34,027 nt of DNA from Candidatus Omnitrophota bacterium (GTDB lineage: Bacteria > Omnitrophota > Gorgyraeia > 2-01-FULL-45-10), in assembly GCA_029004355.1 (NCBI GenBank), contig JAQURV010000005.1:1-34027 (forward strand), in the 5' to 3' direction. Numbering within the stretch: position 1 is the stretch's first letter; every line of letters begins with the position of its first letter. Under the pieces are notes generated by a model. It saw only the letters and a program-made list of their open reading frames with translations. It was not told the DNA's origin and made no database searches. Made by a program: the position numbers and the translations under genes. Below are positions 6,401 through 28,203 of this stretch, one piece after another.

Positions 6401-6523
6401 AAAATCCCAAATTCAAATAGTACCAATACTACCAAATAAATCCAAAATTCAAAATCCAAAATGTTTGGGATTTGGGGTTTTGAATTTATTTTGGATTTGG
6501 TAGTATTTGGATTTTGGATTTTT
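6401..6523. repeat. AT-rich imperfect inverted repeat upstream of aroC, same family as 1438-1554
   Basis: AAAATCCCAAATTCAAATAGTACCAATACTACCAAATAAATCCAAAATTCAAAATCCAAAA mirrored by TTTGGGATTTGGGGTTTTGAATTTATTTTGGATTTGGTAGTATTTGGATTTTGGATTTTT. Confidence 0.8.
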
Positions 6524-10436: not shown

Positions 10437-12439
10437 TGGCAAAAAATTTAGTAATAGTAGAATCGCCGGCCAAGGCAAAGACGATAAATAAGTTCCTCGG
10501 CTCGAGTTATAAGGTCGTCGCGAGCATGGGCCACATCATAGACCTGCCCAAATCGAAGCTCGGCGTCGACGTCGAGAACGACTTTGCGCCGCAGTATGTC
10601 GTCATGGCCGACAGGAAGAAGAACCTCTCCGCGTTGAAGAAAGAGGCGAAGACTAAGACGGCGATATATCTGGCGGCCGACCCTGACCGCGAAGGCGAAG
10701 CGATAAGCTGGCATCTTAAGAACCAATTGTGCGATGAGAATAAAAAGGGCTATCGCGTAGAGTTCGACGAAATAACCAAGGACGCCGTCCTTGCCGCGTT
10801 CAAACACCCGCGCGATATAAATATGAGCCTTGTAAATGCCCAGCAGGCGAGACGCATTCTCGACCGCCTTGTCGGATATTCGATAAGCCCGATACTATGG
10901 AAGAAGGTAGCCCGGGGCCTATCGGCCGGCCGGGTACAATCGGTGGCGGTCCGCTTGATAGTCGAGCGCGAAAAAGAGATAAAGAAGTTCAATCCGCAGG
11001 AGTACTGGAGCGTAGAGGCCGAGCTCAAACGGAAGGCGGACCAGCCCAAAGATAAGTTCATCGCCAAGCTCGATAAGTGCAAAAATGCCGATATAGCTAT
11101 AAAACAGAAGCGCGACGCCGAAAATATCGTCGAGCACCTCAAGAAGCAGACCTTCATAGTCAGCGACCTGCGCGAACAGAGGAAGAGGAGGAGCGCGTAT
11201 CCGCCGTTCACGACGAGCAAACTCCAGCAGGAGGCTTTCAATAAGCTGAGGTTCTCCGGCGCCAAGACGATGCATGTAGCCCAGACCCTTTACGAAGGCG
11301 TCGAGATCGGCGGGGAAGGCTCGGTCGGTCTCATCACTTACATGAGGACGGATTCGGTGCGCATCTCCAAGGACGCACAGGCCGCGGCCAAAGAGTATAT
11401 ACTTACCACGTACGGCAATAAATATTACCCGGACCCCCCGAACGCCTATAAGTCGAGGAAGAGCGCCCAGGAGGCCCACGAGGCTATAAGGCCGACGCTT
11501 CCTTTGAGGAACCCGGAGTCGGTGAAACAGTATCTTTCGGGCGAACAGCTCAAGCTCTACCAGCTTATATGGAACCGCTTTGTCGCCAGCCAGATGGCCC
11601 CGGCGGTATATTCACAGACCACCGTGGATATTAAGGCGGGAGACTATCTCTTCAAGGCAAGCGATACAAAGGTCGTCTTTGACGGTTACACGGCGGTCTA
11701 CGAAGCCGAAAAAGAGAAGGAAGGCGACGAGGAGCCGAAGACGAAGCTCCCGGCGCTTTCGATAGGATTGCCGCTCGATCTCCTGGGGCTCATACCGGCC
11801 CAGCATTTTACGAAACCGCCTCCGAGGTATTCGGACGCCAGCCTCGTGAAGGCGCTCGAAGAGCTCGGCATCGGCCGTCCCTCCACATACGCGCCGATCA
11901 TCCAGACGATAACGGCCAGGGATTACGTCAGGCGCGAATCGGGTTATTTCTACCCGACGGAACTCGGCACCATAGTGGAGGAACTTCTCATGAAGCATTT
12001 CCCGAAGATCCTCGACGTTGAATTCACCGCCAGGATGGAAGATGAGCTTGACGGTATAGAAGAAGGCGAGGCCGATTGGCTCACGGTATTGAAGGCCTTC
12101 TACTCGCCGTTCATCCACTCGGTCGAGGCCGCGAAGCTGGAGATGAAGGACGTCAAGAAGGAGATAGGGGCCACCGACCAGATATGCGAGCTCTGCGGGA
12201 AACCGATGATCATTAAATGGGGCAGGCGCGGAAAATTCTTAAGCTGTTCCGCTTATCCCGAATGCAAGAACGCGAAGTCGATAACCTCGGGCGTGAAATG
12301 CCCGACGGGTTGCGGTGGAGAGCTCGTCCAGAGGCGTTCGACCAGGGGGATGTTCTTCGGCTGCACCAAGTACCCGGCGTGCACATTCACCTCTAAGAAG
12401 TTACCTGAGAAGGCGAAAGAAGGCGAAACCGTAACCTAA
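10436..12439 (+). CDS. topA: DNA topoisomerase I with C-terminal Cys-rich zinc modules
   Basis: NLVIVESPAKAKTINKFLG; AADPDREGEAISWHL; ITYMRTDSVRIS; C-terminal CxxC...C modules. Confidence 0.97.
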   Translation: MAKNLVIVESPAKAKTINKFLGSSYKVVASMGHIIDLPKSKLGVDVENDFAPQYVVMADRKKNLSALKKEAKTKTAIYLAADPDREGEAISWHLKNQLCDENKKGYRVEFDEITKDAVLAAFKHPRDINMSLVNAQQARRILDRLVGYSISPILWKKVARGLSAGRVQSVAVRLIVEREKEIKKFNPQEYWSVEAELKRKADQPKDKFIAKLDKCKNADIAIKQKRDAENIVEHLKKQTFIVSDLREQRKRRSAYPPFTTSKLQQEAFNKLRFSGAKTMHVAQTLYEGVEIGGEGSVGLITYMRTDSVRISKDAQAAAKEYILTTYGNKYYPDPPNAYKSRKSAQEAHEAIRPTLPLRNPESVKQYLSGEQLKLYQLIWNRFVASQMAPAVYSQTTVDIKAGDYLFKASDTKVVFDGYTAVYEAEKEKEGDEEPKTKLPALSIGLPLDLLGLIPAQHFTKPPPRYSDASLVKALEELGIGRPSTYAPIIQTITARDYVRRESGYFYPTELGTIVEELLMKHFPKILDVEFTARMEDELDGIEEGEADWLTVLKAFYSPFIHSVEAAKLEMKDVKKEIGATDQICELCGKPMIIKWGRRGKFLSCSAYPECKNAKSITSGVKCPTGCGGELVQRRSTRGMFFGCTKYPACTFTSKKLPEKAKEGETVT

Positions 12440-13311
12440 TGCAAAGGTTCATTGAGAAATTCATAAACTATCTGAACGTAGAGAAGAACGCGTCGCCGCA
12501 TACGATCCTCAATTACAGGATAGACCTGGAATCGTTCGACAAGTTCTTAGGCGATAAAGACGTTGCTGCGATCGACCATCTTCTGTTGAGGAAATTCCTT
12601 GCAGAGCTCCGGGGCAAGAACTATTCGAAGCGGACGATAGCGCGGAAGTTAGCGTCTCTACGGAGTTTTTTCAGGTTTATGTTCCGCGAAGGACATATCA
12701 AGACCAATCCGATCACCGCCGTCTCCACTCCGAAACTTGATAAGAAACTGCCGATAGTCCTGGACGAGGGGGCCGTAGCCAAGCTGCTCCAGAGCCCGTC
12801 CGGCGACGACGTATTCGGATTAAGGGACAGGGCCATCCTCGAGACGATATATTCCGGGGGCATCCGCGTAAGCGAACTCGTGGGGCTCAACATGAGGAAC
12901 GTCGACCTGATAGGCGAGGTGATCAAGGTATTCGGCAAGGGTTCGAAGGAGCGGATGGTGCCGATAGGAGGACCTGCCGTTTCGGCGTTGAGGAAGTATA
13001 TAGACAAACGCGAAACGATGAAGGTCAAGGATAAAGACGCAGTTTTTCTCGGGAAGAATGGAGCACGCATGGGGGACAGGAACGTGCGGCATATGCTCGA
13101 TAAGTATATAAAGCTCTGCAGTATGACCGTGCATATCTCGCCGCATTCGCTTCGCCATTCGTTTGCGACGCATATGCTCGATCGCGGCGCGGACCTGCGT
13201 AGCGTCCAGGAGCTCCTGGGCCACGCGAATCTGTCGACGACGCAGATTTATACGCATGTGACTATGGACCGCCTGAAGACGGTATACGACAAAGCGCACC
13301 CGAGGGCATAA
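12439..13311 (+). CDS. Tyrosine recombinase XerC/XerD family
   Basis: N-terminal SAM-like domain; HISPHSLRHSFATHMLDRGADLRSVQELLGHANLSTTQIYTHV; coupled to the topA stop. Confidence 0.9.
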   Translation: MQRFIEKFINYLNVEKNASPHTILNYRIDLESFDKFLGDKDVAAIDHLLLRKFLAELRGKNYSKRTIARKLASLRSFFRFMFREGHIKTNPITAVSTPKLDKKLPIVLDEGAVAKLLQSPSGDDVFGLRDRAILETIYSGGIRVSELVGLNMRNVDLIGEVIKVFGKGSKERMVPIGGPAVSALRKYIDKRETMKVKDKDAVFLGKNGARMGDRNVRHMLDKYIKLCSMTVHISPHSLRHSFATHMLDRGADLRSVQELLGHANLSTTQIYTHVTMDRLKTVYDKAHPRA

Positions 13312-13489
13312 AATTTTCATTCCCTGCCGCACGAGGCCCCTCTCGGGGCTCATGCCTCGCAGGGACGCGCAAATTTTAGCCATGTAAAATTTGCGCTCGG
13401 GAAAAATTGCTCGGACGCTGCCTCGCAATTTTTACGCCCTGCTCGACACGAGCCCCTCGGGGGCCACTTCGGCAGGGAACGAAAAACTA
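13309..13489 (+). repeat. Type 1 composite palindromic module, copy A
   Basis: Outer arms TTCCCTGCCG (13320-13329) / CGGCAGGGAA (13470-13479); hairpin GCGCAAATTTTA-gccatg-TAAAATTTGCGC (13367-13396); hairpin AAAAATTGC-tcggacgctgcctc-GCAATTTTT (13402-13433); closing GCAGGG/CCCTGC (13359-13364/13437-13442). Confidence 0.85.
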
Positions 13490-13530
13490 CTAAGGGGTAA
13501 AAGTAATAGTAATAGACAGAGGTTAAAAGT

Positions 13531-14301
13531 ATGACAGTATTTAATGCAAAAACGGATAGAATTAAAGAATTGGCTGTAAAGTTTCATTTCAGGATTACCG
13601 AACTAGAAAAGATATTCGATAAGCCGACAAATGTTTATATTGATTTTGCCAATGTAATATCCTGGCAAGAAAAGTTAAATTGGCATTTTGACATAAAACG
13701 TTTAAAGCAGTTATTTGATTCATTCTCTAATGTAAAAAAGGTAAGTTTTTATTATGGGACGCTACTGGGAGATGTAAAATCCGTGTCCACGCTTGCTGAA
13801 GTTAGGCGTTTAGGGTATTCTGTTAACACTAAACCAGTCAAGATAATGAAGTTATCAATAGATGTCTCTAGTATATCGGTGAATTCCACAGAAATAATTA
13901 AGCAATTTATTCGCCCTCCATTGCTAAAAAAAATAAGTGTTGAAACTGTTGAGTTTTTGAATAAACGAATTAAAGAGCTCAATCAGCAAGGTATAATGTA
14001 TTTAGAAGATTTAAAATGCAACTTCGATGTTGAAATTGGGAGAGATATGCTATTGGACTATCATGGAAATCATGTAGATAATTTTGTTTTATGGAGCGGT
14101 GATAGTGATTTCCATGATCCAGTGAAACAATTGCTGAGTGAAGGCAAGAAGGTGGTATTATTCGCTACAGTCCGCAAGGTGTCTAGGGAATTAAATGATT
14201 TAGTACACGATGGGTTGTATATTTATGAGATACAAAAAATAAGAAATTTTATTTGTTGGCCACGCGAGATTGAGCCTGAAAAGCAAAAGGGACTCAAATA
14301 A
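13531..14301 (+). CDS. NYN (PIN-like) domain putative ribonuclease, LabA/DUF88-like
   Basis: NVYIDFANVISW near the N-terminus, LWSGDSDFHDPVKQLLSEGKKVVLFATVRKVSRELNDL near the C-terminus; typical NYN acidic motifs. Visibly AT-richer than neighbours. Confidence 0.75.
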   Translation: MTVFNAKTDRIKELAVKFHFRITELEKIFDKPTNVYIDFANVISWQEKLNWHFDIKRLKQLFDSFSNVKKVSFYYGTLLGDVKSVSTLAEVRRLGYSVNTKPVKIMKLSIDVSSISVNSTEIIKQFIRPPLLKKISVETVEFLNKRIKELNQQGIMYLEDLKCNFDVEIGRDMLLDYHGNHVDNFVLWSGDSDFHDPVKQLLSEGKKVVLFATVRKVSRELNDLVHDGLYIYEIQKIRNFICWPREIEPEKQKGLK

Positions 14302-14325
14302 ATGAGCCCCCAAGCATTAGATATA

Positions 14326-14350
14326 TGCAAAACTGATCTCTCAGTTTGCA
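14326..14350. other. Hairpin downstream of the NYN gene
   Basis: TGCAAAACTGA-tctc-TCAGTTTGCA, 10-bp stem with one bulge; no clear U-tract. Confidence 0.4.
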
Positions 14351-14540
14351 GTTCAAGTATAGCATTTATAGTTTTATTGTCAAGATAAAAATAAAAAAGT
14401 TAGATGTTGCTCTTTGCTTGAGTTGCTTTGGCTGTGCAGTCTTTAATAAATAAAAGTAGGCATGCTTACTAAGCAATAAGCAGAAAATTTTACGCTGATG
14501 GGAATTGGCTAAAAGTAGTCTGTGCCAAAAGTGAGTATCT

Positions 14541-15245
14541 ATGAAGACAAAAGAACAGAAACATAAAAATTCTATAAATAAAACATGGATTGAACATTGT
14601 AATGATTGGTGTAATGAGCATGCTACTCTAAGCGTGGTTCTTAGCACGATTATTAGTGCATTACTTGTTACGATTATTACATTTTTGCCATTTTACCCAG
14701 CCAATAAGATTGCTAAAGAAACATCTGAACGAGCAGATAAAGAATTTTCTATGCTAAATGCGTCAGACATTAAAGTTTTTACTCTTTATGATTTTTATGT
14801 TGGTACGGGTAAAGAAATGGGGCGCATAGATGATGTTATTGATATACCGCTAGTAATTTGTAATAAAGGTCTCGGGATAGCTAAAGATGTTGCTATGACC
14901 GTTACTTATAATGATGGCGCAGGTTCTGATAAAACATTTAATGTAAATGTACCCTTGTTGAAAGGGACAGAGACGCACCCATTTCCTATATTTCGTCAAT
15001 CAATATTAGCGAATTCTCGCGAGGCTTATTTGTCAAAACGCAATTTTTTCAAAATGAAAATATTTTTGGGATGGAACGATATTTTTGGAAAACGACAGCG
15101 CAACGTAGAATTATTTAAATTAACTGCTACGCCTGCTTATAAAGATTATCCTGCGAAATTTGCATTTGATTCATTAGGCTTTTATAGAGCAAGCAATGAC
15201 GCAGAGACCTTTAAGAAGTGGTCAGAGGAAAAAATAGATTTCTGA
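14541..15245 (+). CDS. Hypothetical protein with one N-terminal TM segment
   Basis: LSVVLSTIISALLVTIITFLPFY; no recognised family; AT-rich like the preceding gene. Confidence 0.65.
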   Translation: MKTKEQKHKNSINKTWIEHCNDWCNEHATLSVVLSTIISALLVTIITFLPFYPANKIAKETSERADKEFSMLNASDIKVFTLYDFYVGTGKEMGRIDDVIDIPLVICNKGLGIAKDVAMTVTYNDGAGSDKTFNVNVPLLKGTETHPFPIFRQSILANSREAYLSKRNFFKMKIFLGWNDIFGKRQRNVELFKLTATPAYKDYPAKFAFDSLGFYRASNDAETFKKWSEEKIDF

Positions 15246-15255
15246 ACAGCCAAGG

Positions 15256-15709
15256 AAATTTTTACGGGTGACGCGGTTGGGTTTTATTAAATGCCGCCAC
15301 GAGGCTTGACTGCAGAATTGGCACCTGGTGATGAGGAAGGTTGCATAAAATCGTGTAGCGGTTAAATGGCCGACTGGCCTGGCGGGAAATTTTTTGGTCG
15401 TTTGGCGGTAATTGTGAAGGATTTGTGAACGGCCTTTAAATTTTTTCGGCATACTGTTATTTGACTGTTGGTGCGCAAGGCCCCGCCGCCGCTAAAGCTT
15501 TGGCGAGGTTTCGCCGAAGGCGAAATTTACGTTGAGCGAATGCAGGAACTGACTGAGGCCTATGTTTGCTTTGTTTTTGCGAAAAGCAAAAACTAAACAT
15601 AGGCCGAAGGAATTCCTGCAAATTCGCGAGACGTAAACCGTAGCGCACGGCGAAAAAATTCAGGCCGTGAACAAAGCCTTCACAATAACGACAGGACCCG
15701 TAAAAATTT
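15256..15709. repeat. Type 2 composite palindromic module, copy D
   Basis: Terminal arms AAATTTTTACGGGT (15256-15269)/ACCCGTAAAAATTT (15696-15709); nested arms 15411-15448/15651-15686; GGCCTATGTTT (15557-15567)/AAACATAGGCC (15595-15605); inner hairpin TTTTTGC-gaaaa-GCAAAAA. Confidence 0.8.
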
Positions 15710-15718
15710 AAGGAGATT

Positions 15719-16996
15719 ATGCTCTACGACATAGGATTCGCGATATTCTCGATCTTCTATCTACCGACGCTGATATTTAAAGGTAAGCTGCACGGAGATT
15801 TTTTCGAGCGGTTCGGCGCGTACGGCAAGGAGAAGAGGGAAGCGCTTGTCAAGGCGAAGGGCGCCATATGGATCCAGGCGGTGAGCGTAGGAGAGGTCGC
15901 GCTCTGCAGGAGCCTGGTCCCGCTCATAAGGGAGAAGTTCCCCGCGCGGCCGATCGTATTCTCGACGATAACAAAGACGGGTAATGACCTTGCGAAGAAG
16001 CTATTCGGAAAAGACGCGGTCGTCATATACTTTCCCCTCGACTTTTCATTTGTCGTGAAGAAGGTCGTCTCCCTGATAAAGCCGAAGATGTATATCATGG
16101 TCGAGACCGAGATATGGCCGAATTTTCTTAAGAAGATAGAACACGATACGGTCCCTGCCATCCTGATCAACGGCAGGATATCCGACAGGTCCTTCGGGAA
16201 GTACGAATTGGCAAGGCCGTTCCTGAGGCCCATTCTTAAAGATATGAATATATTATGCATGCAGTCGAAACTCGACGCCCAAAGGATAACCTCCCTCGGC
16301 GCCAGGCCCGAGCGGGTCAAGGTCACCGGTAATATGAAGTTCGATGTCCAGCTTAAAGTGGGGCGGGTAAGCGGCGATGATCTGAGAAACGAGTTAGGGC
16401 TGTTGCCGGGCGACGAGCTTCTAGTGGCCGGCTCGACGCACGCCGGCGAAGAAGGGGCGATCGTCACCGCGTTTAAAGAGCTGGCCGTGAAATTCCCGAA
16501 ACTTAAATTACTGATCGCTCCGCGGCATATCGAAAGGACCGGCGAGGTCGAAACGGTCATAAAGGAAGACGGTTTTGTACCGGTCCGGTTGTCCGGTCTC
16601 GGTAAAGCGGGGGATGCGTCAGGCGCCAGACGCATATACATCCTCGACACCATCGGGCGATTGAGCGATTTCTATTCGATAGCAACTATAGTCTTCGTGG
16701 GCGGCAGCCTCATAAAACACGGGGGCCAGAACCCGATAGAGCCGGCCATCTACGAGAAGCCGATAGTATTCGGCCAGTATATGTTCAACTTCAAGAATAT
16801 AGCCGAGGCGTTCCTCGCGAAAGAAGCAGCCGTCAGGATCGATAATGCGGGCGAACTGGTACCCGCTCTGTATAACTTACTGGCGGATGAAAAGAAGCGC
16901 CTGGAGGCAGGCAGGGCCGCGAAGAAGGTCGTCGTAGACAATATGGGCGCCACCGATCAGGTGTTGAGCGAGATGGCGAGGTTCCTCGATGCGTGA
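15719..16996 (+). CDS. waaA: 3-deoxy-D-manno-octulosonic acid transferase
   Basis: GAIWIQAVSVGEVALCRSLVPLI; VETEIWPNFL; VFVGGSLIKHGGQNPIEPA; AAGGAG SD just upstream. Confidence 0.93.
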   Translation: MLYDIGFAIFSIFYLPTLIFKGKLHGDFFERFGAYGKEKREALVKAKGAIWIQAVSVGEVALCRSLVPLIREKFPARPIVFSTITKTGNDLAKKLFGKDAVVIYFPLDFSFVVKKVVSLIKPKMYIMVETEIWPNFLKKIEHDTVPAILINGRISDRSFGKYELARPFLRPILKDMNILCMQSKLDAQRITSLGARPERVKVTGNMKFDVQLKVGRVSGDDLRNELGLLPGDELLVAGSTHAGEEGAIVTAFKELAVKFPKLKLLIAPRHIERTGEVETVIKEDGFVPVRLSGLGKAGDASGARRIYILDTIGRLSDFYSIATIVFVGGSLIKHGGQNPIEPAIYEKPIVFGQYMFNFKNIAEAFLAKEAAVRIDNAGELVPALYNLLADEKKRLEAGRAAKKVVVDNMGATDQVLSEMARFLDA

Positions 16997-18035
16997 GCTT
17001 ATATATTCATTGATGACCGATAAACGTAACGGGCCGGTATTTGCCCCTGTAAAATTTTTGCTATACCTTGTCTCGCTCGGCTATGGGGCGGGGCTATTTG
17101 TGAGGCATATATTTTACAAGACAGGCATCTTCCGCTCCGAAAAGGTCCCCTTAAAGATAATATCGGTCGGCAATCTCACCCTGGGCGGGACGGGGAAGAC
17201 GCCATTTGTGATGCGGCTGGTCAAGATGCTGGACGAAGAGTGCGGCAAGCGCGCGAGCGTCCTTATCCGCGGCTACGGATGGGACGAACAGACGATGCTT
17301 AAACGCAAACTCGCCGATACCCCGATCCTTGTCGGCGAGGATCGCGCCAGGTCCGCCCACAAGGCGATAAAACTGTACGGAAGCGATACGGCGGTCCTCG
17401 ATGACGGGTTCCAGCATTGGGAGCTTGAGAGAAATCTGGACATAGTCCTTATCGATTCGCGCAATCCTTTAGGCAACGGTTGTCTCTTTCCCCGCGGGAT
17501 ATTGAGAGAGCCCAAAGAAGCGGTCAAGCGCGCCTCGGTCATCGTCTTCACAAAAGTAGATAAGGCCGGATCGGGATCGGACAATATAAGGAATGAGCTT
17601 AAGATGATAAATGGAAGGCTCGTCTTCATCGAGGCCGTCCACAAACCCGTATGCGTGTATGACCTTAAGGCGAGGAAAGCGCGCGCCCTGGACTTCCTGA
17701 AAGGAAAGCGGGTCGTCCTCCTATCCAGCATAGGCGACCCTGATTATTTCGCGGAGTCCGTCCGTCGGCTGGGCGCGGATATAGCGGAGCATGTCGTCTT
17801 CGCCGATCATCATAACTATGATCAAGCCGACGCCGTCCGTATTACCAAGAGATGCGACGAGAGGAAGTTCGATTTTATATTAACGACCGAAAAGGATGAG
17901 GTTAAATTGAGAAGGATGTCATTATCGTTCGGAGACTACCCTGTGATGACCCTCAATATAGAGATGGATATAATTTCGGGAAAGGATGAGCTCGTTGATA
18001 GATTACGTAGCCTATATAGCCGTAAGGGCGCTTAA
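16989..18035 (+). CDS. lpxK: Tetraacyldisaccharide 4'-kinase
   Basis: ISVGNLTLGGTGKTPFVMRL; LIRGYGW; VLDDGFQHWELERNLDIVLID; LTTEKDEVKLRRM. Confidence 0.93.
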   Translation: MRELIYSLMTDKRNGPVFAPVKFLLYLVSLGYGAGLFVRHIFYKTGIFRSEKVPLKIISVGNLTLGGTGKTPFVMRLVKMLDEECGKRASVLIRGYGWDEQTMLKRKLADTPILVGEDRARSAHKAIKLYGSDTAVLDDGFQHWELERNLDIVLIDSRNPLGNGCLFPRGILREPKEAVKRASVIVFTKVDKAGSGSDNIRNELKMINGRLVFIEAVHKPVCVYDLKARKARALDFLKGKRVVLLSSIGDPDYFAESVRRLGADIAEHVVFADHHNYDQADAVRITKRCDERKFDFILTTEKDEVKLRRMSLSFGDYPVMTLNIEMDIISGKDELVDRLRSLYSRKGA

Positions 18036-19938
18036 TAAGATACTTGGGTTCGTGCCGATAAGCGCGTCGCTGTGGCTCGGCAGGCGCATCGGGGACGTCG
18101 TCTTCTTCTTTAATAAGGAGAGGCGGCTCGTCGCCTACGCCAACCTGAAGAGCGCGTTCGCCGGCGAGAAGACGCCTTCGGAGCTGAGGTCCATCACGAA
18201 GAGGGTATACCGCAATATGGTCCAGACTTTCGTGGAGCTCCTGAACCTTACGAAGGTCAACCGCAAATATTGCGACCGGTATGTGGAAGTCGTGAATATG
18301 GACCGCATCCGCAACGCCTCGAAGTCCGGGAGGGGCACCATACTCCTTACGGCGCACTTCGGCGATTGGGAGCTCTCCAGCCTCGTCAGCTCGGTAGAAG
18401 GATTTCCCATCCTCGTTCTCGTGAGGGAACAGAAGATGAAGCGCCTGAACGAGCTTTTGAATACCCTGAGAGAATCGAACGGCTGCAAGGTCATCAGGAA
18501 GGGGATGGATGTAAAGAATATATTGAAGGCGCTTTACGGGAAGAATATAGTAGGCATTCTTTCCGACCAGGACGCCGGCAAGAACGGCGTCTTCGTCGAT
18601 TTCTTCGGCCGCCCGACCTCTTACCATTCCGGGCCGTTCGAGATCGCGAAGCATACGGGTTCGCTCATATTGCCTAATTTTATAGTCCGCACCGGCGGGC
18701 CCTATCATAAACTTTACCTCGAAGAGTATATAGACTTCGGGAAAGGTCCCAAGGACGGCGATATGAAAGAGAATGTGCAGAGATTCGCGAAACTTCTCGA
18801 GGATTATATACGAAAATACCCCGACCAGTGGCTCTGGCTCCACAAGAGGTGGAAGTCGACGCCTGTCCGCACCGTCCTTGTCCTGAATGACGGCAAGGCG
18901 GGCCACCTGAATCAATCTATGGCCGTAGCGGATCAGCTCCGCCGGGCCAGGATGACTCAAGGTTATGGTCCTGAGGATACTAAGGTAGTCGTGGTCGACG
19001 TTAAGTATAAGAGCAGGTTTTCGCGCGTCCTGCTTACGGCTTGCGCGAGCCTCGTCGGCTGGCGCTGTCACGGGCGGATGGGGATCATGAAGCTCTGCCT
19101 CGAGAAAGAGACTTACGATACGCTGATGAAGACGTATTCGGAATTCGTAGTATCTTGCGGATCGGCTCTCGCGCCGGTCAATGTCTTTATAGCTAAAGAG
19201 AACTGCGCGAAGAACATAGTTGTCATGAGGCCGAATATGCCGATCGGCCTGGGTAAATTCAACCTGGCGGTCATACCGAGGCACGATAAGCCGCGGAACG
19301 CGAAGAACGTAGTCGTGACGGATCTCGCGCCGAACCTGATAGATGAGACGAAACTCGCGAAGGGCGCCGAAAGCATGAAGGACCACCTTCACGCGGACGT
19401 AAAAGACGCGGTGGCGCTTTTTGTGGGCGGAGATAACCCCGAGTTCAGGCTGACGGGCGATATCATGAATTCGGTGATACAGGGCGTGTCGGAGTTCTGC
19501 AACCGTTCGGGCGCATCGATGCTGACGACGACATCGCGGAGGACCTCGCCCGAGATCGAGAATATACTTAAGAAGAGGCTGAATAATTATCCCAGGAGCA
19601 AGCTCCTTGTGGTCGCCAACGACAGGAATTTCGATTTTACGGTAAGCGGGATGCTCGCTTTGAGCAAAGTTGCCATAGTCTCGGAAGAATCTATCTCTAT
19701 GATCTCGGAGGCGATCAGCGCGGGTAAGAAGGTGGTGGTCTTCCGGCTGTCGAAGAATGCCGAAGCGATCACTAAACATGAACGCGCCCTGAAGAGCCTG
19801 GAGAAGGAAGGGTACGTTGCCATTACAGAGTCGTCGAACCTTATGAACGCGCTGGAAAAGGTATGGAACGATAAGGCGCCCGTGACTCCGCCGAAGGACA
19901 TGGAGCGCGTCTTCGAGGCTCTTCGGAAACTTATATAG
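17986..19938 (+). CDS. Fusion: LpxL/HtrB-type lipid A acyltransferase (N) and mitochondrial-fission ELM1-like domain (C)
   Basis: N-term: ILLTAHFGDWELSSL (HX4E), GILSDQDAGKNGVFVDFFGRPTS, PDQWLWLHKRWKS. C-term: VLVLNDGKAGHLNQSMAVADQL, LLVVANDRNFDFTVSGMLALSKVAIVSEESISMISEA. Overlaps lpxK by 50 nt. Confidence 0.82.
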   Translation: MSSLIDYVAYIAVRALNKILGFVPISASLWLGRRIGDVVFFFNKERRLVAYANLKSAFAGEKTPSELRSITKRVYRNMVQTFVELLNLTKVNRKYCDRYVEVVNMDRIRNASKSGRGTILLTAHFGDWELSSLVSSVEGFPILVLVREQKMKRLNELLNTLRESNGCKVIRKGMDVKNILKALYGKNIVGILSDQDAGKNGVFVDFFGRPTSYHSGPFEIAKHTGSLILPNFIVRTGGPYHKLYLEEYIDFGKGPKDGDMKENVQRFAKLLEDYIRKYPDQWLWLHKRWKSTPVRTVLVLNDGKAGHLNQSMAVADQLRRARMTQGYGPEDTKVVVVDVKYKSRFSRVLLTACASLVGWRCHGRMGIMKLCLEKETYDTLMKTYSEFVVSCGSALAPVNVFIAKENCAKNIVVMRPNMPIGLGKFNLAVIPRHDKPRNAKNVVVTDLAPNLIDETKLAKGAESMKDHLHADVKDAVALFVGGDNPEFRLTGDIMNSVIQGVSEFCNRSGASMLTTTSRRTSPEIENILKKRLNNYPRSKLLVVANDRNFDFTVSGMLALSKVAIVSEESISMISEAISAGKKVVVFRLSKNAEAITKHERALKSLEKEGYVAITESSNLMNALEKVWNDKAPVTPPKDMERVFEALRKLI

Positions 19939-19942
19939 AGGA

Positions 19943-20148
19943 GTAAAATTTTTCGATGCAGCAACAGCATGTGATGTGTCAATGTGGCTCGCAGGGACGC
20001 GAAATTTTCAGCCATGTGAAAATTTCGCTCGATAAAAGTTCTCGTACGCTGCCTCGAACTTTTAACGCCCTGCTCGCCTCGCTTCGCTCGGCGAAGCGGG
20101 CTCACCACATCGCCACATCACATTGTGATAGAGATCGAAAAATTTGCT
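19943..20148 (+). repeat. Type 1 composite palindromic module, copy B
   Basis: Outer GTAAAATTTTTCGAT (19943-19957)/ATCGAAAAATTTGC (20134-20147); hairpin GCGAAATTTTCA-gccatg-TGAAAATTTCGC (19999-20028); hairpin TAAAAGTTC-tcgtacgctgcctc-GAACTTTTA (20033-20064); GCAGGG/CCCTGC closing. Confidence 0.85.
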
Positions 20149-20158
20149 GGAGAGTGTA

Positions 20159-20399
20159 GTAAAATTTTTCGCTCCGTCAGATGGCAGAACTTTTGGGTGA
20201 TTGCCGGAGCGACTGTTTAAAATTTCGATACCTCATGGCGATATAGCAGGACGCGAAAACTGGTCAACAGATTTAAGCATTACCAGGTTGAGCGGCCATC
20301 GAAATTTTACCACAGCAAATTGGCATGCCTAATGCCAATTTGCGACAAGCGGAGGCAACACCCAAAAGTAAATGCCGGCTTGAGACGAAAAATTATTAC
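20159..20399. repeat. Type 2 composite palindromic module, copy E
   Basis: Outer AGTAAAATTTTTCG/CGAAAAATTATTAC; ACTTTTGGGTGATTGCC (20189-20205)/GGCAACACCCAAAAGT (20354-20369); TAAAATTTCGAT (20218-20229)/ATCGAAATTTTA (20298-20309); hairpin GCAAATTGGCAT-gccta-ATGCCAATTTGC (20315-20343). Confidence 0.8.
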
Positions 20400-20410
20400 G
20401 GAATGACTTT

Positions 20411-22510
20411 ATGAATATTTTACAGGTTCTGCCATCACTGGATATCGGCGGAGTCGAGACAGGGACGATAGATCTCGCGAAGTATCTCGTCAGCCGCGGG
20501 CATAAGGCCATCACCATCTCTTCCGGCGGCAGGCTCGTCCGGGAGCTCGACGCTATCGGCGCGCGCCATTACAATCTGCCCATCGGCAAAAAGTCCCTTA
20601 TTAATATCATCCGCATGATAAAAGAGGTGTGCGAGATCATCCGCAGGGAAGATATCGATATCGTGCACGCCCGCTCGCGCGTCCCGGCCCTGATAGCGTA
20701 TATAGCGTGCAAGGCTTCGAACAAGGCATTTCTCACGACCGCCCACGGTTATTACAGGAAACATCTCATGAGCGAGGCGATGGGCTGGGGCAAGTATGTC
20801 ATAGTGGCCTCGAATATAATGGCAAAGCACATGGTGAATAATTTCAAAGTGCCGTATGACAGGATACGCCTGATACCGCGCGGCGTGGACCTCGAGTGGT
20901 TTACCTTCAGGGATCCGTCGGCGCATTCTCCGGCCGGTTTTACGGTCGGGATGGTCTCCAGGATAACCCCGCTTAAAGGACATGCCGATTTTGTAAGGGC
21001 GATAGCCATTCTCAACCGGCAGATACCGAACCTGCACGCCGTGATAGTGGGCGAAGCTCCTAAGAGTAAATATAAGGAGGACCTTGAGCTTCTCATCAGG
21101 AGGCTTGGCCTCTCCAATACGATAGAGTTCCTCTCCGCGACTAACGATGTGCCCAACGTGATGAAGAAGCTGGACGTGCTCGTCTCCGCCACCATAACTC
21201 CGGAGGCGTTCGGGAGGGTAATAATAGAGGCCCAGGCCTCCGGCGTACCGGTCGTCGCTACGCAGGTCGGCGGCGTAGTCGATATTATAGAAGACAGTAA
21301 GACGGGACTCTTATGTTCGCCCCAGAACCCGAAAGACATGGCCGAGAAAGTGCTTAAACTTTACAAGGACAGGGCGCTATGGATGAATCTTGCGATAGGA
21401 TCGAGGCGGCACGTAGAGTCGTATTTTAACCTGGAAAAGATGATGGAGAAGACGCTCGCCGTCTATGAGGAGGCCCTTGCCACAGTGAACATCCTAGTTA
21501 TAAAGATCAGCGCGATAGGCGATGTCATATTGAGCGTGCCGTCGTTGAAGGCGATACGGGCCAAATACCCCAGGGCGAATATCAAGGTCCTGGTCGGCGT
21601 ACAGTCCAGGGAAGCGCTCGACGGGTGCCCGTATATAAATGAAAGGATCGTATGCGATCTCAAAGGCAGACACCGCGGTATCTTCGGCCTGTGGCGCCTT
21701 GGAAAAGAGCTGCGGAGTTCCTGCTTCGACATCGCGATAGATCTACAGAATTCGAAGAGGAGCCACCTGCTGGCCGCGTTGAGCCTCGCACCTCTAAGGT
21801 ACGGTTACGATAATAAGAAACTGTCGTTCCTTTTGAACAGGCGCCTCCGGGACGACGCGCCTTACCTCGACCCGATCGAGCACCAGTTCAGGACGCTGCG
21901 GATGGCGGCCATAAAACCGCAGGAGAAGTGTCTGGAACTCTGGCCGTCGCCCGCGGAAGAGGATCGCGCCGAAAAACTCCTGACGGAAGGGTGGATGACT
22001 CCGTCCGCCGGGCTCGTGGGCGTCAATGTCAGGGCATCCTCGAGATGGGTCACGAAAAATTGGCCGGTCTCGTATATTGCCGAACTGTCGGACAGGCTCG
22101 CGAAAGAGTTCAATGTAAGGACGGTCCTGACCGGCGCCGAAGAGGATATCGATTTTGCCCAGGCGATAGCGAGGTCGGCTAAGTCCAAGCCGCTCGTCGC
22201 GGCCGGCAAGACGAGCATCCTGGAACTAGCCAGTCTCATCAGGCGTTTTAAGGTCTATCTGACGCCCGATTCCGCGCCGATGCATATAGCCGCTGCCATG
22301 GGCACGCCGTGCATAGCGCTATTTGGCCCGACAAATCCCGAGCGCCACGTGCCTCCTTCGGGGACCTGCATGGTCATATCGAAGAAAGACGAATTAAAGT
22401 GCAGTCCGTGCTACAATCCAAATTGTGTCAAGAATTTCGTATGCATGAAGAAGATAACCGTCGATGAAGTGCTCGAGGCGATGCGGCCGTACCTGAAAGA
22501 AGGCGTTTAA
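20411..22510 (+). CDS. Fusion: GT4 glycosyltransferase (N) and GT9 heptosyltransferase-like domain (C)
   Basis: N-term: LPSLDIGGVETGTIDLAKYL, VSRITPLKGHADFVRAI, EAFGRVIIEAQASGVPVVATQVGG. C-term: NILVIKISAIGDVILSVPSLKAI, LTPDSAPMHIAAAMGTPCIALFGPTNP. Confidence 0.88.
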   Translation: MNILQVLPSLDIGGVETGTIDLAKYLVSRGHKAITISSGGRLVRELDAIGARHYNLPIGKKSLINIIRMIKEVCEIIRREDIDIVHARSRVPALIAYIACKASNKAFLTTAHGYYRKHLMSEAMGWGKYVIVASNIMAKHMVNNFKVPYDRIRLIPRGVDLEWFTFRDPSAHSPAGFTVGMVSRITPLKGHADFVRAIAILNRQIPNLHAVIVGEAPKSKYKEDLELLIRRLGLSNTIEFLSATNDVPNVMKKLDVLVSATITPEAFGRVIIEAQASGVPVVATQVGGVVDIIEDSKTGLLCSPQNPKDMAEKVLKLYKDRALWMNLAIGSRRHVESYFNLEKMMEKTLAVYEEALATVNILVIKISAIGDVILSVPSLKAIRAKYPRANIKVLVGVQSREALDGCPYINERIVCDLKGRHRGIFGLWRLGKELRSSCFDIAIDLQNSKRSHLLAALSLAPLRYGYDNKKLSFLLNRRLRDDAPYLDPIEHQFRTLRMAAIKPQEKCLELWPSPAEEDRAEKLLTEGWMTPSAGLVGVNVRASSRWVTKNWPVSYIAELSDRLAKEFNVRTVLTGAEEDIDFAQAIARSAKSKPLVAAGKTSILELASLIRRFKVYLTPDSAPMHIAAAMGTPCIALFGPTNPERHVPPSGTCMVISKKDELKCSPCYNPNCVKNFVCMKKITVDEVLEAMRPYLKEGV

Positions 22511-23608
22511 ATGAAGATACTGCAAGTGACGACGCATATGAATATAGGCGGGATAGCAAATTACATCCTTAACATTTCCGAGTCGCTCCGGGAAAAGGGG
22601 ATGGAGGTCATGGTAGCGTCGAGCGGCGGCAACCTCGGGAACGAATTGCTTTCGCGTAAGATACCTCACAGGTACGTGGACATAAGGACAAAGTTCGAGT
22701 TTGGCCCCAAGGTTATAGGAGCGGCCTTCCGGCTGGCGCGGATAGTAAAGACGGAGAAGGTCGACATAATACATGCGCATACGAGGGTCTCCCAGGTAGC
22801 GGTATTTTTGGCTTCCAAGTTGACGGGCGTGCCTTATGTCACCACGTGCCACGGTTATTTTAAATTACGCTCGCGCAAACTTTTCGACACATGGGGCAGA
22901 AGAGTTATAGCGATAAGCGATGCCGTAAAGGATCATTTAAAAAATGACCTGGGCGTGGACGAGGAGAGGATAAGACTTATCTACAGCGGCGTAGATATCG
23001 CCAAATTCGCGCGCCGCTATTCCGAAGCCGGGAAGGGCGCGATAAAGATCGAGCTCGGCCTGAAGGATGCGCCCGTGGTTGGGACGATAGGGAGGCTTTC
23101 CCAGGTCAAGGGGCAGAGATATCTGGTCCAGGCGATGGCCGATATCGTTGACAAGATAAGCGAAGCCCAGTGCCTTATCGTGGGCGACGGGGGAGAGCGG
23201 CTTGCCCTAGAGAATCTGACCAGGGCCCTGAATATCAGGGATTCCGTCTGCATCATTCCTTCAAGTCTCGATACTCCGAGGATCTTTGCCGTAATGGATG
23301 TCTTTGTATTTCCGTCGGTTAAAGAAGGCCTCGGCATTGCGCTATTGGAAGCGATGGCGGCGGGTAAGGCCTGTGTGGCGTCCGACATAGGAGGTATAAG
23401 CGATATTATAAAAGACTCCTCCTGCGGCATATTGGTCGGGGTCGGCGATATCAAGGCGATAGCGGAAGCGGTGGTAAAGCTTCTTGGTGACGGAGCCCTG
23501 AGGCAGAAGATCGGCGAGAACGCCAGGAATCTGGTGAGCGAAAAATTTTCGCTTGACGTTATGACTGACAGTGTCATACAGTTGTATAAAGAGGTGATCG
23601 GTGCGTAG
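22511..23608 (+). CDS. GT4 family glycosyltransferase
   Basis: MKILQVTTHMNIGGIANYILNISESL; GRLSQVKGQRYLVQAM; KEGLGIALLEAMAAGKACVASDIGGISDII. Confidence 0.9.
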   Translation: MKILQVTTHMNIGGIANYILNISESLREKGMEVMVASSGGNLGNELLSRKIPHRYVDIRTKFEFGPKVIGAAFRLARIVKTEKVDIIHAHTRVSQVAVFLASKLTGVPYVTTCHGYFKLRSRKLFDTWGRRVIAISDAVKDHLKNDLGVDEERIRLIYSGVDIAKFARRYSEAGKGAIKIELGLKDAPVVGTIGRLSQVKGQRYLVQAMADIVDKISEAQCLIVGDGGERLALENLTRALNIRDSVCIIPSSLDTPRIFAVMDVFVFPSVKEGLGIALLEAMAAGKACVASDIGGISDIIKDSSCGILVGVGDIKAIAEAVVKLLGDGALRQKIGENARNLVSEKFSLDVMTDSVIQLYKEVIGA

Positions 23609-24386
23609 GCGGATATTATTTATAGGGATAGTGGCGGTAGCGGTGATAGCGGTTGTTTCCGCCGTCATATATGTCGAGACATCCTATACCGTTCCCATCC
23701 TGATGTATCATTCTATAAATAACGACGCCGGGGCTACCAAGCTATCGGTCTCCCCGGAAGATTTTGCCAGGCAGATGGAATTTTTACACAAAAATCATTA
23801 TAATGTCGTGCCGCTTGAAAAGGCCGTCCCTTTCATCAAGAAGAAAGAGAGGCCGCCGCAGAAGACCATAGCGATAACTTTTGACGACGGCTTTCGCGAT
23901 AATTACGTTTATGCATATCCGGTGCTGAAGAGATACGATATCCCGGCGACCATCTTTGTTGTCATGGACTGGGTAGGCACGTCGCCGAAATACATGGATT
24001 GGGACGAAATAAAGGAGATGTCCGATTCCGGCCTTATCGCTATAGGCAGCCATACTAATGAACACCACTGGCTCTTAGATTCGGACGAAGACATCCTTAA
24101 GGCCGAGGTTGAGGGTTCTAAGAAGACCCTGGAGAGCCGTATCGGGCGCAAGGTCAACGTCTTCTGCTATCCAATGGGCAGGTTTGACGAAAGGTCGAAG
24201 AAGGCGGTAGAGGCGGCAGGTTATTTATGCGCGGTATCTACGAATTCCGGGGACGTGTCCCTGGATGACGTTTACGGCATTAATCGCGTGAGGATATCCC
24301 GCTCGTCGGGTAACTTATTTATCTTTTGGGCCGAGACGACGAGATGCTATGCATGGTTCAAGCAATTTCGCAAGGTAGTTTCATGA
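23601..24386 (+). CDS. Polysaccharide deacetylase (CE4/NodB domain) with N-terminal membrane anchor
   Basis: PILMYHSI; TIAITFDDGFRDNYVYAYPVLKRYDIPATIFVV; IGSHTNEHHWL; FCYPMGRFDE. Confidence 0.9.
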   Translation: MRRRILFIGIVAVAVIAVVSAVIYVETSYTVPILMYHSINNDAGATKLSVSPEDFARQMEFLHKNHYNVVPLEKAVPFIKKKERPPQKTIAITFDDGFRDNYVYAYPVLKRYDIPATIFVVMDWVGTSPKYMDWDEIKEMSDSGLIAIGSHTNEHHWLLDSDEDILKAEVEGSKKTLESRIGRKVNVFCYPMGRFDERSKKAVEAAGYLCAVSTNSGDVSLDDVYGINRVRISRSSGNLFIFWAETTRCYAWFKQFRKVVS

Positions 24387-25417
24387 AGAAAAGAATATTG
24401 ATAGTCAATGTCAACTGGATAGGCGATACGCTCTTCTCGACGCCTTTTATACGCGCCGTGAGGGATGCGTATCCTGACAGCTACATCGCCTGTCTTCTCC
24501 ATCCGAGATGCGTCGAGATGCTCGAGCTGAATCCCCGATTGGACGAGATAATCATATACGATGAAGAGGGCGTTCATAAAGGGCTCTTCGGTAAGCTTGC
24601 CCTGATAGCGTCGCTGCGGAAGAAGCGTTTCGATACCGCGTTCCTTCTCCACGGGTCCTTTACGAAAGCATTCATAGCGTTCCTTGCAGGCATAAAAGAA
24701 CGGGTGGGGTATCCTACGAAGAAGAGGCAGATGCTGCTGACGAAGGTGGTCGAGGCGCCGTCGGAAGAGCTGCACAAGGTAGAATATTTTTTGAATATCG
24801 CCAGGGCTTACGGCCTGGCGCCGAAGAGCGTTTCGTATGAATTTTTTATAGACGATTCCCATAAAAGATTTATAGCGGGCCTGCTCCGGGAGTCGGGCGT
24901 TTCCGAGGGGGACAGGATCGTCGTCCTGTGTCCGGGCGGCAATTGGGACCCCAAGAGATGGCCGAAGGAGAATTTTGCGGCATTGGCGGATACACTGGCC
25001 AAAGAATACGGCGTCAGGATCGTGATATCCGGCGCGCGGAAGGACCTGAGGCTCGCCGAAGAGATAAGGGGCATGATGAAGGCGAAGCCGATAATTATCG
25101 CCGGGAGGATGACGCTGAAGGAACTCGGGGCGCTCTTTTTGCACGCCGGCCTTGTTATCGCGAACGATTCGGGGCCGATGCACCTTGCCGTAGCTATGAA
25201 GGCAAGGACGATCGCTCTCTTTGGCCCGACCTCGCCGGCCATCACGGGACCGTATGGCGAAGGCCGCTATAAAGTGATCTCGAAGAACGATACCTGCGAC
25301 ATACCATGCTATGATGTCACGTGCCGGGACAACCGTTGCATGGCCGCGATAAAGGTCGAGGATGTGCTGAAAGAAGCGAAGGAAGCGTTAATGACAAACT
25401 GCCGGGCCGCAAGATGA
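24383..25417 (+). CDS. GT9 heptosyltransferase-like protein
   Basis: MKKRILIVNVNWIGDTLFSTPFIRAVRDAYPDSYI; CPGGNWDPKRWPKENFAAL; VIANDSGPMHLAVAMKARTIALFGPTSP. ATGA overlap with the deacetylase. Confidence 0.9.
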   Translation: MKKRILIVNVNWIGDTLFSTPFIRAVRDAYPDSYIACLLHPRCVEMLELNPRLDEIIIYDEEGVHKGLFGKLALIASLRKKRFDTAFLLHGSFTKAFIAFLAGIKERVGYPTKKRQMLLTKVVEAPSEELHKVEYFLNIARAYGLAPKSVSYEFFIDDSHKRFIAGLLRESGVSEGDRIVVLCPGGNWDPKRWPKENFAALADTLAKEYGVRIVISGARKDLRLAEEIRGMMKAKPIIIAGRMTLKELGALFLHAGLVIANDSGPMHLAVAMKARTIALFGPTSPAITGPYGEGRYKVISKNDTCDIPCYDVTCRDNRCMAAIKVEDVLKEAKEALMTNCRAAR

Positions 25418-26391
25418 TAATAGACAAAACTCAGGTAAAGAGGATCCTGGTAATAACGTTGAGCAATGTGGGCGATATCATCCTTACTACGCCCGTTATC
25501 AAGGCGCTAGCGAAAGAATTTCCGGGGATCAGGCTCGACGTCATGGTCGGGCCGCAGGGTAAAGAGATATTTGAAAAGGACCCTCATGTCTTCAAGGTCA
25601 TCATTTACGACAAGCATCTGCCGATAGGCCAGAAGAGGCGGCTGCAGCTAAAGCTTAAAAAATTAAAATACGACCTTGTGGTCGATATCAGGAATACCGT
25701 GTTTCCTCTCCTGATCGGCCCGAGGTTCAGGACCGCGACGATACAGAACTTCCCGCACCATATCATTCACAGGAAGCTGCGCCATCTCTACAGGCTTAAA
25801 TCGGTGGGTATAGAGAAGATGGAAGAGTCGCCTTACATCCACACTACAAGCCAGGACGATGAGTACATCGACAGGATGCTCAAGGAGAACGATATCGTCG
25901 ATCCGATAGTCGTGATGAATGCAGGCGCGAAGAGCCATCTGAAGAGATGGACCGCCGGGGGGTTTGCGGAAGTGGCGGAAAGGCTTATGGCCGAATGCAG
26001 GGCCAGCGTGGTCTTCGTCGGGCTGAACGAAGACGAGGCGATAGTGAAAGAGGTCATTTCGCGGATGAACCGTAAGCCGCATAATTTCGTCAATAAGACC
26101 AATATCAGGCAGCTCGCCAGCCTGCTCAAGCGCTCCAGGCTCCTCATAACAAATGACAGCGCGCCGCTCCATCTTGGATGCGCGGTCGGCGTAAAAGTGG
26201 TCGCATTATTCGGCCCCACGGATCCGCGTAAATACGGGCCGACGGGCGAATTCGACGTCGTCATTACAGAAAAATTATCATGCGCGCCTTGCGAGTGCGC
26301 CCAGTGCGCGCGTAACTATGAATGCATGCGGCTCATCTCTCCGGATGCCGTATTCGACGCCGCGAAGATGATGATCGAGGGATATGAGTAA
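25414..26391 (+). CDS. GT9 heptosyltransferase-like protein
   Basis: KRILVITLSNVGDIILTTPVIKAL; NAGAKSHLKRWTAGGFAEV; LITNDSAPLHLGCAVGVKVVALFGPTDP. ATGA overlap start. Confidence 0.88.
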   Translation: MIIDKTQVKRILVITLSNVGDIILTTPVIKALAKEFPGIRLDVMVGPQGKEIFEKDPHVFKVIIYDKHLPIGQKRRLQLKLKKLKYDLVVDIRNTVFPLLIGPRFRTATIQNFPHHIIHRKLRHLYRLKSVGIEKMEESPYIHTTSQDDEYIDRMLKENDIVDPIVVMNAGAKSHLKRWTAGGFAEVAERLMAECRASVVFVGLNEDEAIVKEVISRMNRKPHNFVNKTNIRQLASLLKRSRLLITNDSAPLHLGCAVGVKVVALFGPTDPRKYGPTGEFDVVITEKLSCAPCECAQCARNYECMRLISPDAVFDAAKMMIEGYE

Positions 26392-27454
26392 AATCCAAAT
26401 GACAAAATCCAAAATCCAAAAACGGGGAGGCAAAAGAGTTCTTATCGTAAGGCTCGACAGGATAGGGGATGTCCTTCTCTCGACGCCTGTCATAAAGGCT
26501 GTCCGCGATGTCTGCCCCGACGGCCACATAGCTTTTATGGTCAGGAGATATGCCAAAGATATCCTGGAAGGCAATCCATACCTGGATGAGGTGATAGTCT
26601 ATGAAAAGACCGGGCGGGAGAGGGGATTTTTCAGGAACCTGGGTTTCGTACGGCACCTGCGCCGCAAAAAATTCGACATCGCCCTGATCCTGCACCCGAC
26701 GAAGAGGACGCATCTTCTTGTGTCGCTGGCAGGTATCCCCGAGACGGTCGGATACAACCGGAAGTGGGGATTCCTTCTTACCACGAGGATCCCGCATTCC
26801 AAACAGTATGGTCTGAAGCATGAGATCGATTATACCCTCGACATACTGAGATATACCGGATTAGAGCCCAGGGACAAGACCCTCTACATGCCGGTGAACA
26901 GCCATTCGGAATCGAAAGTGGACGAACTCTTAAGGACGAGCGGCATAGCTAAGGATGACCTTTGCGTCGCGATGAACCCGGGCGCCAGCTGTCCTTCGAA
27001 GAGATGGAAGCCGGATAAGTTCGCCAAGGTCGCGGACGCCCTGATCGAAAGATATGGGGCTAAGATAGTGGTGGTGGCGGCCGAGGCGGATAAAGGGCTG
27101 GGCGACAGGATCGCATCGCTGGTAAAGAAGGATTGCGTGAATCTGTCGGGCAGGACGAGCGTCGCCGATGTGGCGAGCGTACTGAGGCGGACGAAGCTCT
27201 TTATATCGAATGACTCCGGGCCGGTGCATATAGCATGCGCCGTAGGGACGCCGGTCATCGCGATATTCGGCAGGCATGACCGCGGGCTTTCGCCGACGCG
27301 CTGGGGACCGACAGGATGGCACGACGCGGTGCTCCATAAGGACGTGGGCTGCATCGAATGCCTTGCGCATAACTGCGCCAGGGGATTCAAATGTCTCGAG
27401 GCGGTAACGGCCGATGAGGTGCTCACAGCCGCTGCAAAAATATTGGGGAAGTAA
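26384..27454 (+). CDS. GT9 heptosyltransferase-like protein with repeat-encoded N-terminus
   Basis: KRVLIVRLDRIGDVLLSTPVIKAVRDV; NPGASCPSKRWKPDKFAKV; FISNDSGPVHIACAVGTPVIAIFG. First ~13 residues (MSKIQMTKSKIQK) come from AAAATCCAAA-type repeat. Confidence 0.87.
   Translation: MSKIQMTKSKIQKRGGKRVLIVRLDRIGDVLLSTPVIKAVRDVCPDGHIAFMVRRYAKDILEGNPYLDEVIVYEKTGRERGFFRNLGFVRHLRRKKFDIALILHPTKRTHLLVSLAGIPETVGYNRKWGFLLTTRIPHSKQYGLKHEIDYTLDILRYTGLEPRDKTLYMPVNSHSESKVDELLRTSGIAKDDLCVAMNPGASCPSKRWKPDKFAKVADALIERYGAKIVVVAAEADKGLGDRIASLVKKDCVNLSGRTSVADVASVLRRTKLFISNDSGPVHIACAVGTPVIAIFGRHDRGLSPTRWGPTGWHDAVLHKDVGCIECLAHNCARGFKCLEAVTADEVLTAAAKILGK
26388..26423. repeat. Partial copy of AAAATCCAAA-family repeat spanning a gene start
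   Basis: TAAAATCCAAATGACAAAATCCAAAATCCAAAAACG, resembling the arms at 1438-1554 and 6401-6523. Confidence 0.6.
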
Positions 27455-27671
27455 AATTTTTCACCACAGCGGTAAATGTGCTGTGCCGAGTGGTTCGTAA
27501 ACCTCGGGGTTGTGCTTCGCAGGGACGCGCAAATTTTAACCATGTAAAATTTGCGCTCGGGAAAAATTGCTCGGACGCTGCCTCGCAATTTTTACGCCCT
27601 GCTTAAGCACGAACCCCTCGGTTTCCGAACCACATCGCCATATCACATTACGGCAGAGCGAAAAATTTTAC
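27451..27671 (+). repeat. Type 1 composite palindromic module, copy C
   Basis: Outer GTAAAATTTTTC (27451-27462)/GAAAAATTTTAC (27660-27671); middle arms GTGGTTCGTAAACCTCGGGGTTGTGCTT / AAGCACGAACCCCTCGGTTTCCGAACCAC; core 27519-27602 matches copy A at 83/84 positions. Confidence 0.87.
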
Positions 27672-27682
27672 TGGGGTGGCTG

Positions 27683-27988
27683 GAAATTTTTCGGGTGACG
27701 CGGCTTCTAGCCTTTTGTCGAATAGGGCGATTACGGGGTGGGTCTACTTCGCTCAAAGCTTTTCAGCTTTGAGCTTCGAAGGACCCATCCCTACGAAGCC
27801 GTGCACGAAAGTAGCACGGCGAAGTAGGATGGGGTTTGACCTTTCGGCTTTGCCGTAGCACACTGACCGTTAAGGTTATTTAAATAAGGCTGATTAAATC
27901 AAGAATACCGATATTAAAAGCCGTGCATGCGCGCGGATAAAGCCCTATAAAACAAAAGGCGAAGCCGCGGCAGGACCCGAAAAATTTC
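27683..27988. repeat. Type 2 composite palindromic module, copy F
   Basis: AAATTTTTCGGGT (27684-27696)/ACCCGAAAAATTT (27975-27987); hairpin GCTCAAAGCT-tttc-AGCTTTGAGC (27751-27774); CCCATCCCTAC-gaa-GCCGTGC...GCACGGC-gaa-GTAGGATGGG (27784-27833). Confidence 0.8.
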
Positions 27989-28015
27989 TAAGGATCTGGG
28001 AAATTTGTTGAGGAG

Positions 28016-28106: not shown

Positions 28107-28203
28107 TAAAAGTATGCCACATAAAACAGGAAAAGGCAATAGTCGGAGGCCACTTTTTTAATCAAATGTTAAACAGAAATTCAGCCAGAAAGAAGGTATT
28201 TGC

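Follow-up and report, generated by a model that had tools for sequence, protein, structure and literature searches.

Dispersed palindromic repeats in an Omnitrophota bacterium border an AT-rich two-gene island at the xerC-waaA junction and are probably docking sites for exchangeable genes

The window, i.e., the whole stretch of 34,027 nucleotides analysed here, is contig C5 of the source genome (G000), a fragmented assembly of 1.69 Mb in 179 contigs that is about 90% complete. The gene order is dprA, topA, xerC, waaA, and lpxK, and the gap between xerC and waaA contains a palindromic element A, a gene for a NYN-domain protein, a gene for a transmembrane (TM) protein, and a second palindromic element, B. 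The upstream neighbour, xerC (12439..13311, + strand), lies in the dprA-topA-xer context and scores 354 bits with the NCBIfam XerC model TIGR02224, above its cut-off. The downstream neighbour, waaA (15719..16996, + strand), encodes a KDO transferase (PF04413, E 2.8e-59). No credible Rfam match was obtained for positions 12300-28300 of the window.

The island between A and B (13490-15255) has a GC content of about 0.34, compared with 0.50-0.53 around it, and its edges are sharp, with A ending at about 13486-13489 and B starting at AAATTTTTACGGG (15256). The first cargo gene (13531..14301, + strand) encodes a NYN-domain (PIN-like) nuclease of 256 aa. It matches PF01936 (E 4.7e-15, 56.8 bits) as well as the NYN and HEC-09 models of PADLOC, and the acidic residues D38, D166, D191, and D193 are conserved with its relatives, so both the profile and these residues agree with a NYN protein. 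The second cargo gene (14541..15245, + strand) encodes a protein of 234 aa with a single TM segment, placed by hydropathy at residues 27-55; it has no credible family in Pfam, NCBIfam, PHROG or PADLOC, and its AlphaFold model has a mean pLDDT of 50. The GC content is 0.335 for the NYN gene and 0.340 for the TM gene (0.53-0.54 for the flanking xerC and waaA), and their GC3 values are 0.32 and 0.26, respectively (0.70-0.71 for the same flanking genes). With regard to codon adaptation, they rank 17th and 9th lowest among 723 genes (z -3.0 and -3.5). An earlier note, made from the sequence alone, had described an AT-rich, codon-deviant island with a NYN gene and a single-TM gene inside a palindrome pair, and had proposed to compute these values, which confirm the description for both genes.

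The nearest relative of the NYN protein, with 56% identity, is encoded on an IMG/VR contig together with a phage integrase and an IS1595 transposase, and the matches among 57 related genomes are all weak. For the TM protein, one clear relative (46% identity) was found in these 57 genomes; it is located at a different place in the genome of G017 (L228), on a contig that carries GmrSD-like and other foreign genes. Among GTDB genomes, the sole relative found for the TM protein belongs to Candidatus Omnitrophota. Plasmid searches returned no relative of either protein, nor did a phage search and a PDB sequence search with the NYN protein or a search of viral contigs with the TM protein. As far as can be judged from sequence, the surroundings of the cargo relatives support a horizontal origin and a conflict-related role.

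Element A (13309..13489, + strand; terminal motif TAAAATTTT..CGAAAAA), the left border of the island, is supported by repeat matches, fold, and compensatory changes, and its first bases are the TAA stop codon of xerC. Such elements are palindromes of about 170-250 bp that are bounded by TAAAATTTTTCG..CGAAAAATTTTA and consist of an outer stem with two hairpins inside. The copy at the island has 26 matches inside G000, where 35 A copies were counted in the 1.03 of 1.69 Mb that were scanned, and matches occur in 7 of the 23 genomes searched, all from one Omnitrophota family. Compared with shuffled DNA, the single-strand fold lies well outside chance, both for the A of the island (z -7.6) and for that of locus 3 (z -10.1). 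Compensatory changes affect 20 of the 43 predicted pairs in a comparison of 17 A copies, again well outside chance, which indicates that complementarity of the arms is maintained. Where the start of A could be measured across all genomes, it falls exactly within the upstream gene's TAA stop codon in 19 of 39 cases.

The right border, element B (15256..15712, + strand), also folds well outside chance (z -11.0), and this region has 23 matches in its own genome. It is a composite, in which an outer GGGTGACG..GGACCCG palindrome encloses other palindromic pieces; tRNA-like pieces were suspected in it, and ARAGORN finds none. In general, B stands for a set of palindromic elements (B1, B2, and B3, which leave some A partners uncovered) with the same end motif as A. 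Exact sequence runs of 64 bases (A) and 116 bases (B) are common to other copies. Where a B is close to an A, it mostly follows on the right and shares the orientation of A (28 of 35 pairings), the exceptions involving truncated or nested copies. At one locus (G000:C65, L114:3608-3926), a B2 is inserted inside an A at the internal AAATTT, which indicates that the elements are, or were, mobile. RAYT genes exist and were considered as the source of a mover; the loci examined around them contain no A, no B, and no AAATTTTTCG motif, and this candidate was rejected.

The two other pairs of the window are empty sites, one of the form A-linker-B2 (19944..20400, + strand; linker GCTGGAGAGTGTAGTA) and one of the form A-linker-B3 (27452..27989, + strand; linker TACTGGGGTGGCTGG). 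The two elements had been said to abut there, and the A-to-B distances are indeed just 16 bp and 15 bp. The linker is normally 15-17 bp long and reads roughly TACYRGGGNNRGCNNGG, and empty linkers are alike across loci and genera (TACTGGAGAGGCTGG, TACTGGGGTGGCTGG, TACCAGGGTAAGCGAGG, and TACTGAGCAAGATGG). By comparison with the empty sites, whose linkers read TACYRGGG.., the island could have kept a left linker half, TACTAAGGGG (13488..13497, + strand), and a right one, AGCCAAGG (15248..15255, + strand). Half-linkers also look retained in G005 and at G000:C1, which is suggestive, but at most sites they do not. A comparison of cargo edges revealed no clear sequence in common, and the half-linkers are the one hint that the linker could be the precise point of insertion.

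The same junction was then compared between relatives, nearly all of which are represented by fragmented assemblies with contigs broken at such repeats. In G001, a sister species of the same genus, the locus is split between two contigs: C30 ends with xerC and A, and C3 starts inside an A and continues with genes for a TM protein of 231 aa, an HTH_17 protein of 89 aa and a Fic protein of 141 aa, followed by waaA. These three cargo genes have a GC content of 0.34-0.40, and B is missing at this site. In G005, which belongs to another genus, xerC is followed by A (partly unread), a gene for a 567-aa AAA_15/OLD-GajA-like ATPase (GC 0.34), B, and waaA. G003, G008, G011, and G015 exhibit B2-type palindromes and no gene in the gap, and G021 exhibits an A-like element without cargo; in all, palindromes of the superfamily are present without cargo in at least four further genera. 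In G013, G014, G016, G019, and G025, a gap of about 7 to 82 bp separates xerC from waaA. At this junction, the NYN/TM pair occurs in 0 of 57 relatives, which disfavours its vertical descent there in the sampled family. Three unrelated cargos (in G000, G001, and G005) are thus located between the same conserved genes, as expected for a hotspot of exchangeable cargo. Empty orthologous sites exist both here (G003, G008, G011, and G015) and elsewhere (L109 for L085, and L116 for L130). The comparison of sister genomes had been proposed in the earlier note, which regarded the island as the occupied form of an otherwise empty site and would have given up this view if all relatives carried a vertically inherited NYN/TM pair here. 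No relative carries the pair here; other cargo occurs in two of them, and in the remaining ones the gap is short or contains palindromes alone, so that the reading as occupied versus empty sites is supported.

The earlier note had also asked whether other palindrome pairs ever contain cargo. AT-rich ORFs to the right of A were found at 13 sites in four genomes, i.e., at the island and at 12 further sites, where A and either B or the next gene enclose the ORFs (the window, G000:C76, G000:C1, L079, L080, L085, L120, L123, L130, L132, L138, L142, and L143). The position of the cargo is uniform, on the right of A at 13 of 13 sites (two-sided sign test, p ~0.0002), or at 12 of 12 (p ~0.0005) when L079, where the left side lies beyond the contig, is left out. 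Several of these sites can be compared between genomes. The NYN cargo of G002:C99 (L085) corresponds to an empty A-B pair in G000:C89 (L109), with flanking genes that are 83-84% identical. A 458-aa cargo in G001:C5, where B is missing, and a 330-aa cargo in G002:C70 are located behind the same gene, which is 90% identical (L120/L142), and the 167-aa cargo of G005:C14 (L130) corresponds to an empty A-B2 pair in G001:C51 (L116).

In G000, cargo is present at 3 of 35 A sites, compared with 7 AT-rich clusters in about 797 other gaps (Fisher p 0.007), i.e., it is about 10-fold commoner at A sites, with a GC threshold and a cluster count that were chosen post hoc. As about seven clusters of G000 are located away from A (on C2, C7, C31, C46, C9, C11, and C20), the association is an enrichment and not an exclusive rule. 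In a 0.38-Mb sample of G002, one of eight A copies has cargo. The cargo comprises NYN proteins (twice), HTH and Fic proteins, an OLD/GajA-like ATPase, SocA/Panacea, FRG (PDC-S15), and unclassified membrane or secreted proteins, so that several cargos match families known from defence or toxin-antitoxin systems. No cargo is common to two loci at more than about 31% identity, the level at which the two NYN cargos resemble each other. The PADLOC models matched are GajA/Old, PDC-S15, NYN/HEC-09, PDC-S23 (across the Fic part), and PDC-S54, the last over the full length of a cargo protein with 452 bits. At G005:C41 (L132:3549-6388), an A-adjacent cargo with homologues of PDC-S15 (FRG) and PDC-S54 is followed by a RAYT gene (C41:7161-7496).

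Varied or absent cargo at orthologous sites, a fixed side relative to A, deviant composition, and the likeness of A copies within a genome all argue for A-B pairs being docking sites with cargo turnover, to which we assign a probability of about 85%. In the proposed mechanism, the xerC-waaA gap would hold a long-standing pair of dispersed non-coding palindromes, A then B, between which AT-rich genes from horizontal transfer, in many cases of a nuclease, toxin-antitoxin or phage-defence-like kind, would come to sit. The cargo would turn over, and A, B, and the neighbouring genes would persist. The NYN/TM pair may be a defence or toxin-type unit, in which the membrane protein would regulate or sense the nuclease. 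The favoured route of entry would be homologous recombination, e.g., after DNA uptake, between incoming copies of A and B and the resident ones, as dispersed near-identical repeats provide homology on both sides. We lean slightly towards docking and turnover in combination with this route. The A copies group by genome and not by locus (8 label changes, compared with 14.1 in shuffled data and with 0 of 200 shuffles as low), although many A loci are syntenic between genomes. This higher likeness within a genome than across a locus favours homologous exchange between dispersed repeats, and the clustering resembles concerted evolution and hence suggests that the copies recombine with one another. 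Alternatively, the clustering could stem from lineage-specific amplification.

A, B, and foreign genes could instead have built up independently in gaps at gene 3' ends that tolerate insertions, the palindromes being uninvolved in entry. The 19 of 39 A copies that start precisely at a stop codon, which points to tolerated sites, the nested palindromes of G000:C65, and the AT-rich clusters elsewhere are consistent with this, and we see in it a minor but real possibility. Nevertheless, such a gap would not account for the position of the cargo, which was on the right of A 13 times out of 13, between the two elements when both are present, and 0 of 13 times between the upstream gene and A, nor for the roughly 10-fold excess at A sites and the differing cargo of several genomes at one site.

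The whole of A, cargo, and B could also transpose as a composite MITE or mobile insertion cassette, with a transposase acting in trans on the shared termini TAAAATTTTTCG..CGAAAAATTTTA. The alike termini of A and B, their constant order and linker, the B2 nested within A, and copy numbers in the tens would fit. This is, however, unlikely: at xerC-waaA, palindromes of the superfamily persist and the cargo varies, so that several independent insertions into a single position would be required, and the same A-cargo-B unit was never seen at two loci, the NYN cargos being just about 31% identical. Moreover, a target-site duplication outside the element is not established, and no transposase flanked by A or B is known from a test that covered the RAYTs. 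We regard as quite unlikely a stronger form of the docking proposal, in which A-linker-B would be a dedicated integrase-free system with tens of equivalent slots, its linkers being loaded repeatedly with defence or toxin genes by RecA-dependent exchange after uptake or by XerCD.

Two tyrosine recombinases (PF00589) are found in G000, identified by NCBIfam as XerC (12439-13311 in the window) and XerD (C76:2436-3323; L111, L216). An A-cargo-B site is located directly 3' of each of the two genes, and XerD is also followed by A in G002 and G005; with so many such sites, the neighbourhood of both xer genes may be due to chance. Integron-like capture, in which XerC/XerD or a lost integrase would act on the folded palindromes as if they were attC sites and cassettes would enter the linker, could draw on this neighbourhood, on palindromes capable of folding as single strands, on their fixed orientation, and on the small ORFs between them. 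It is nevertheless very improbable, as both recombinases are canonical and score below the integron-integrase cut-offs, XerC far below, the consensus and termini of A show no RYYYAAC..GTTRRRY boxes when read by eye, and no cassette arrays were seen. No IntI integrase was found in the assembly of G000, which is about 90% complete. The family score and gene context of XerC also justify the caution with which a role of this recombinase in insertion had been called speculative. Finally, a misjoin of the island at repeats was rejected as extremely unlikely, even with exact runs of 64 (A) and 116 (B) bases common to other copies and fragmented assemblies that break at such repeats, since xerC adjoins waaA throughout the family and two compensating misjoins per independent assembly, always between A and B, would be required.

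Other repeats border AT-rich islands in G000 as well. A 4.9-kb island (C7:21296-26427, L156), with tRNA genes close by, is bordered by an inverted repeat of 85 bp that is perfect and belongs to another palindrome family. A second island (C2:18802-25129; L147, L148), which encodes an AbiJ-like protein and a DNA methylase, is bordered by perfect 65-bp direct repeats, with a third copy within. In the window, another repeat family (AAATCCAAAATTC..) forms long inverted repeats about 4.9 kb apart (1432-1549 and 6413-6516).

The docking sites proposed here share features with several known systems. Mobile insertion cassettes, such as MIC231 of Bacillus cereus (cited in PMC6542083) and the qnrS2 cassette of the Aeromonas plasmid pAC3 (PMC5444012), also combine a passenger gene with MITE-like repeats and lack their own transposase. 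In contrast, two different large palindromes here persist at syntenic loci with changing passengers, and neither movement as a unit nor a helper transposase was found; A and B share terminal motifs, yet they differ as elements and stay put. The small mobile palindromic repeats of bacteria, of the MITE, REP/BIME, and RU/ERIC types (PMC2229807), similarly occur as tens of structured intergenic palindromes, often at gene 3' ends and in nested mosaics, whereas the ordered A-linker-B pairs bracket whole foreign genes. In the literature on Omnitrophota palindromic repeats and MITE-borne cargo, we found no description of the A/B family. As with integron cassettes and attC sites, small variable genes, often of defence or toxin-antitoxin type, are located between folded recombination-like sites, but there is no integron integrase, each site has one cargo island, and the sites are dispersed around the genome. 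As in defence islands and integration hotspots, foreign gene sets differ between the same two core genes of relatives, but the borders are non-coding palindromes and neither an integrase nor a tRNA gene was seen at the site.

An integrase, a tRNA or a transposon underlies the majority of known cargo hotspots. In the present case, slots with candidate defence genes appear to be marked by non-coding palindromic repeats alone, in a largely uncultured phylum. If this is general, a scan for A-B pairs would provide a direct listing of the accessory and defence gene content of these bacteria, and would make it possible to study whether insertion slots arise from repeat families.
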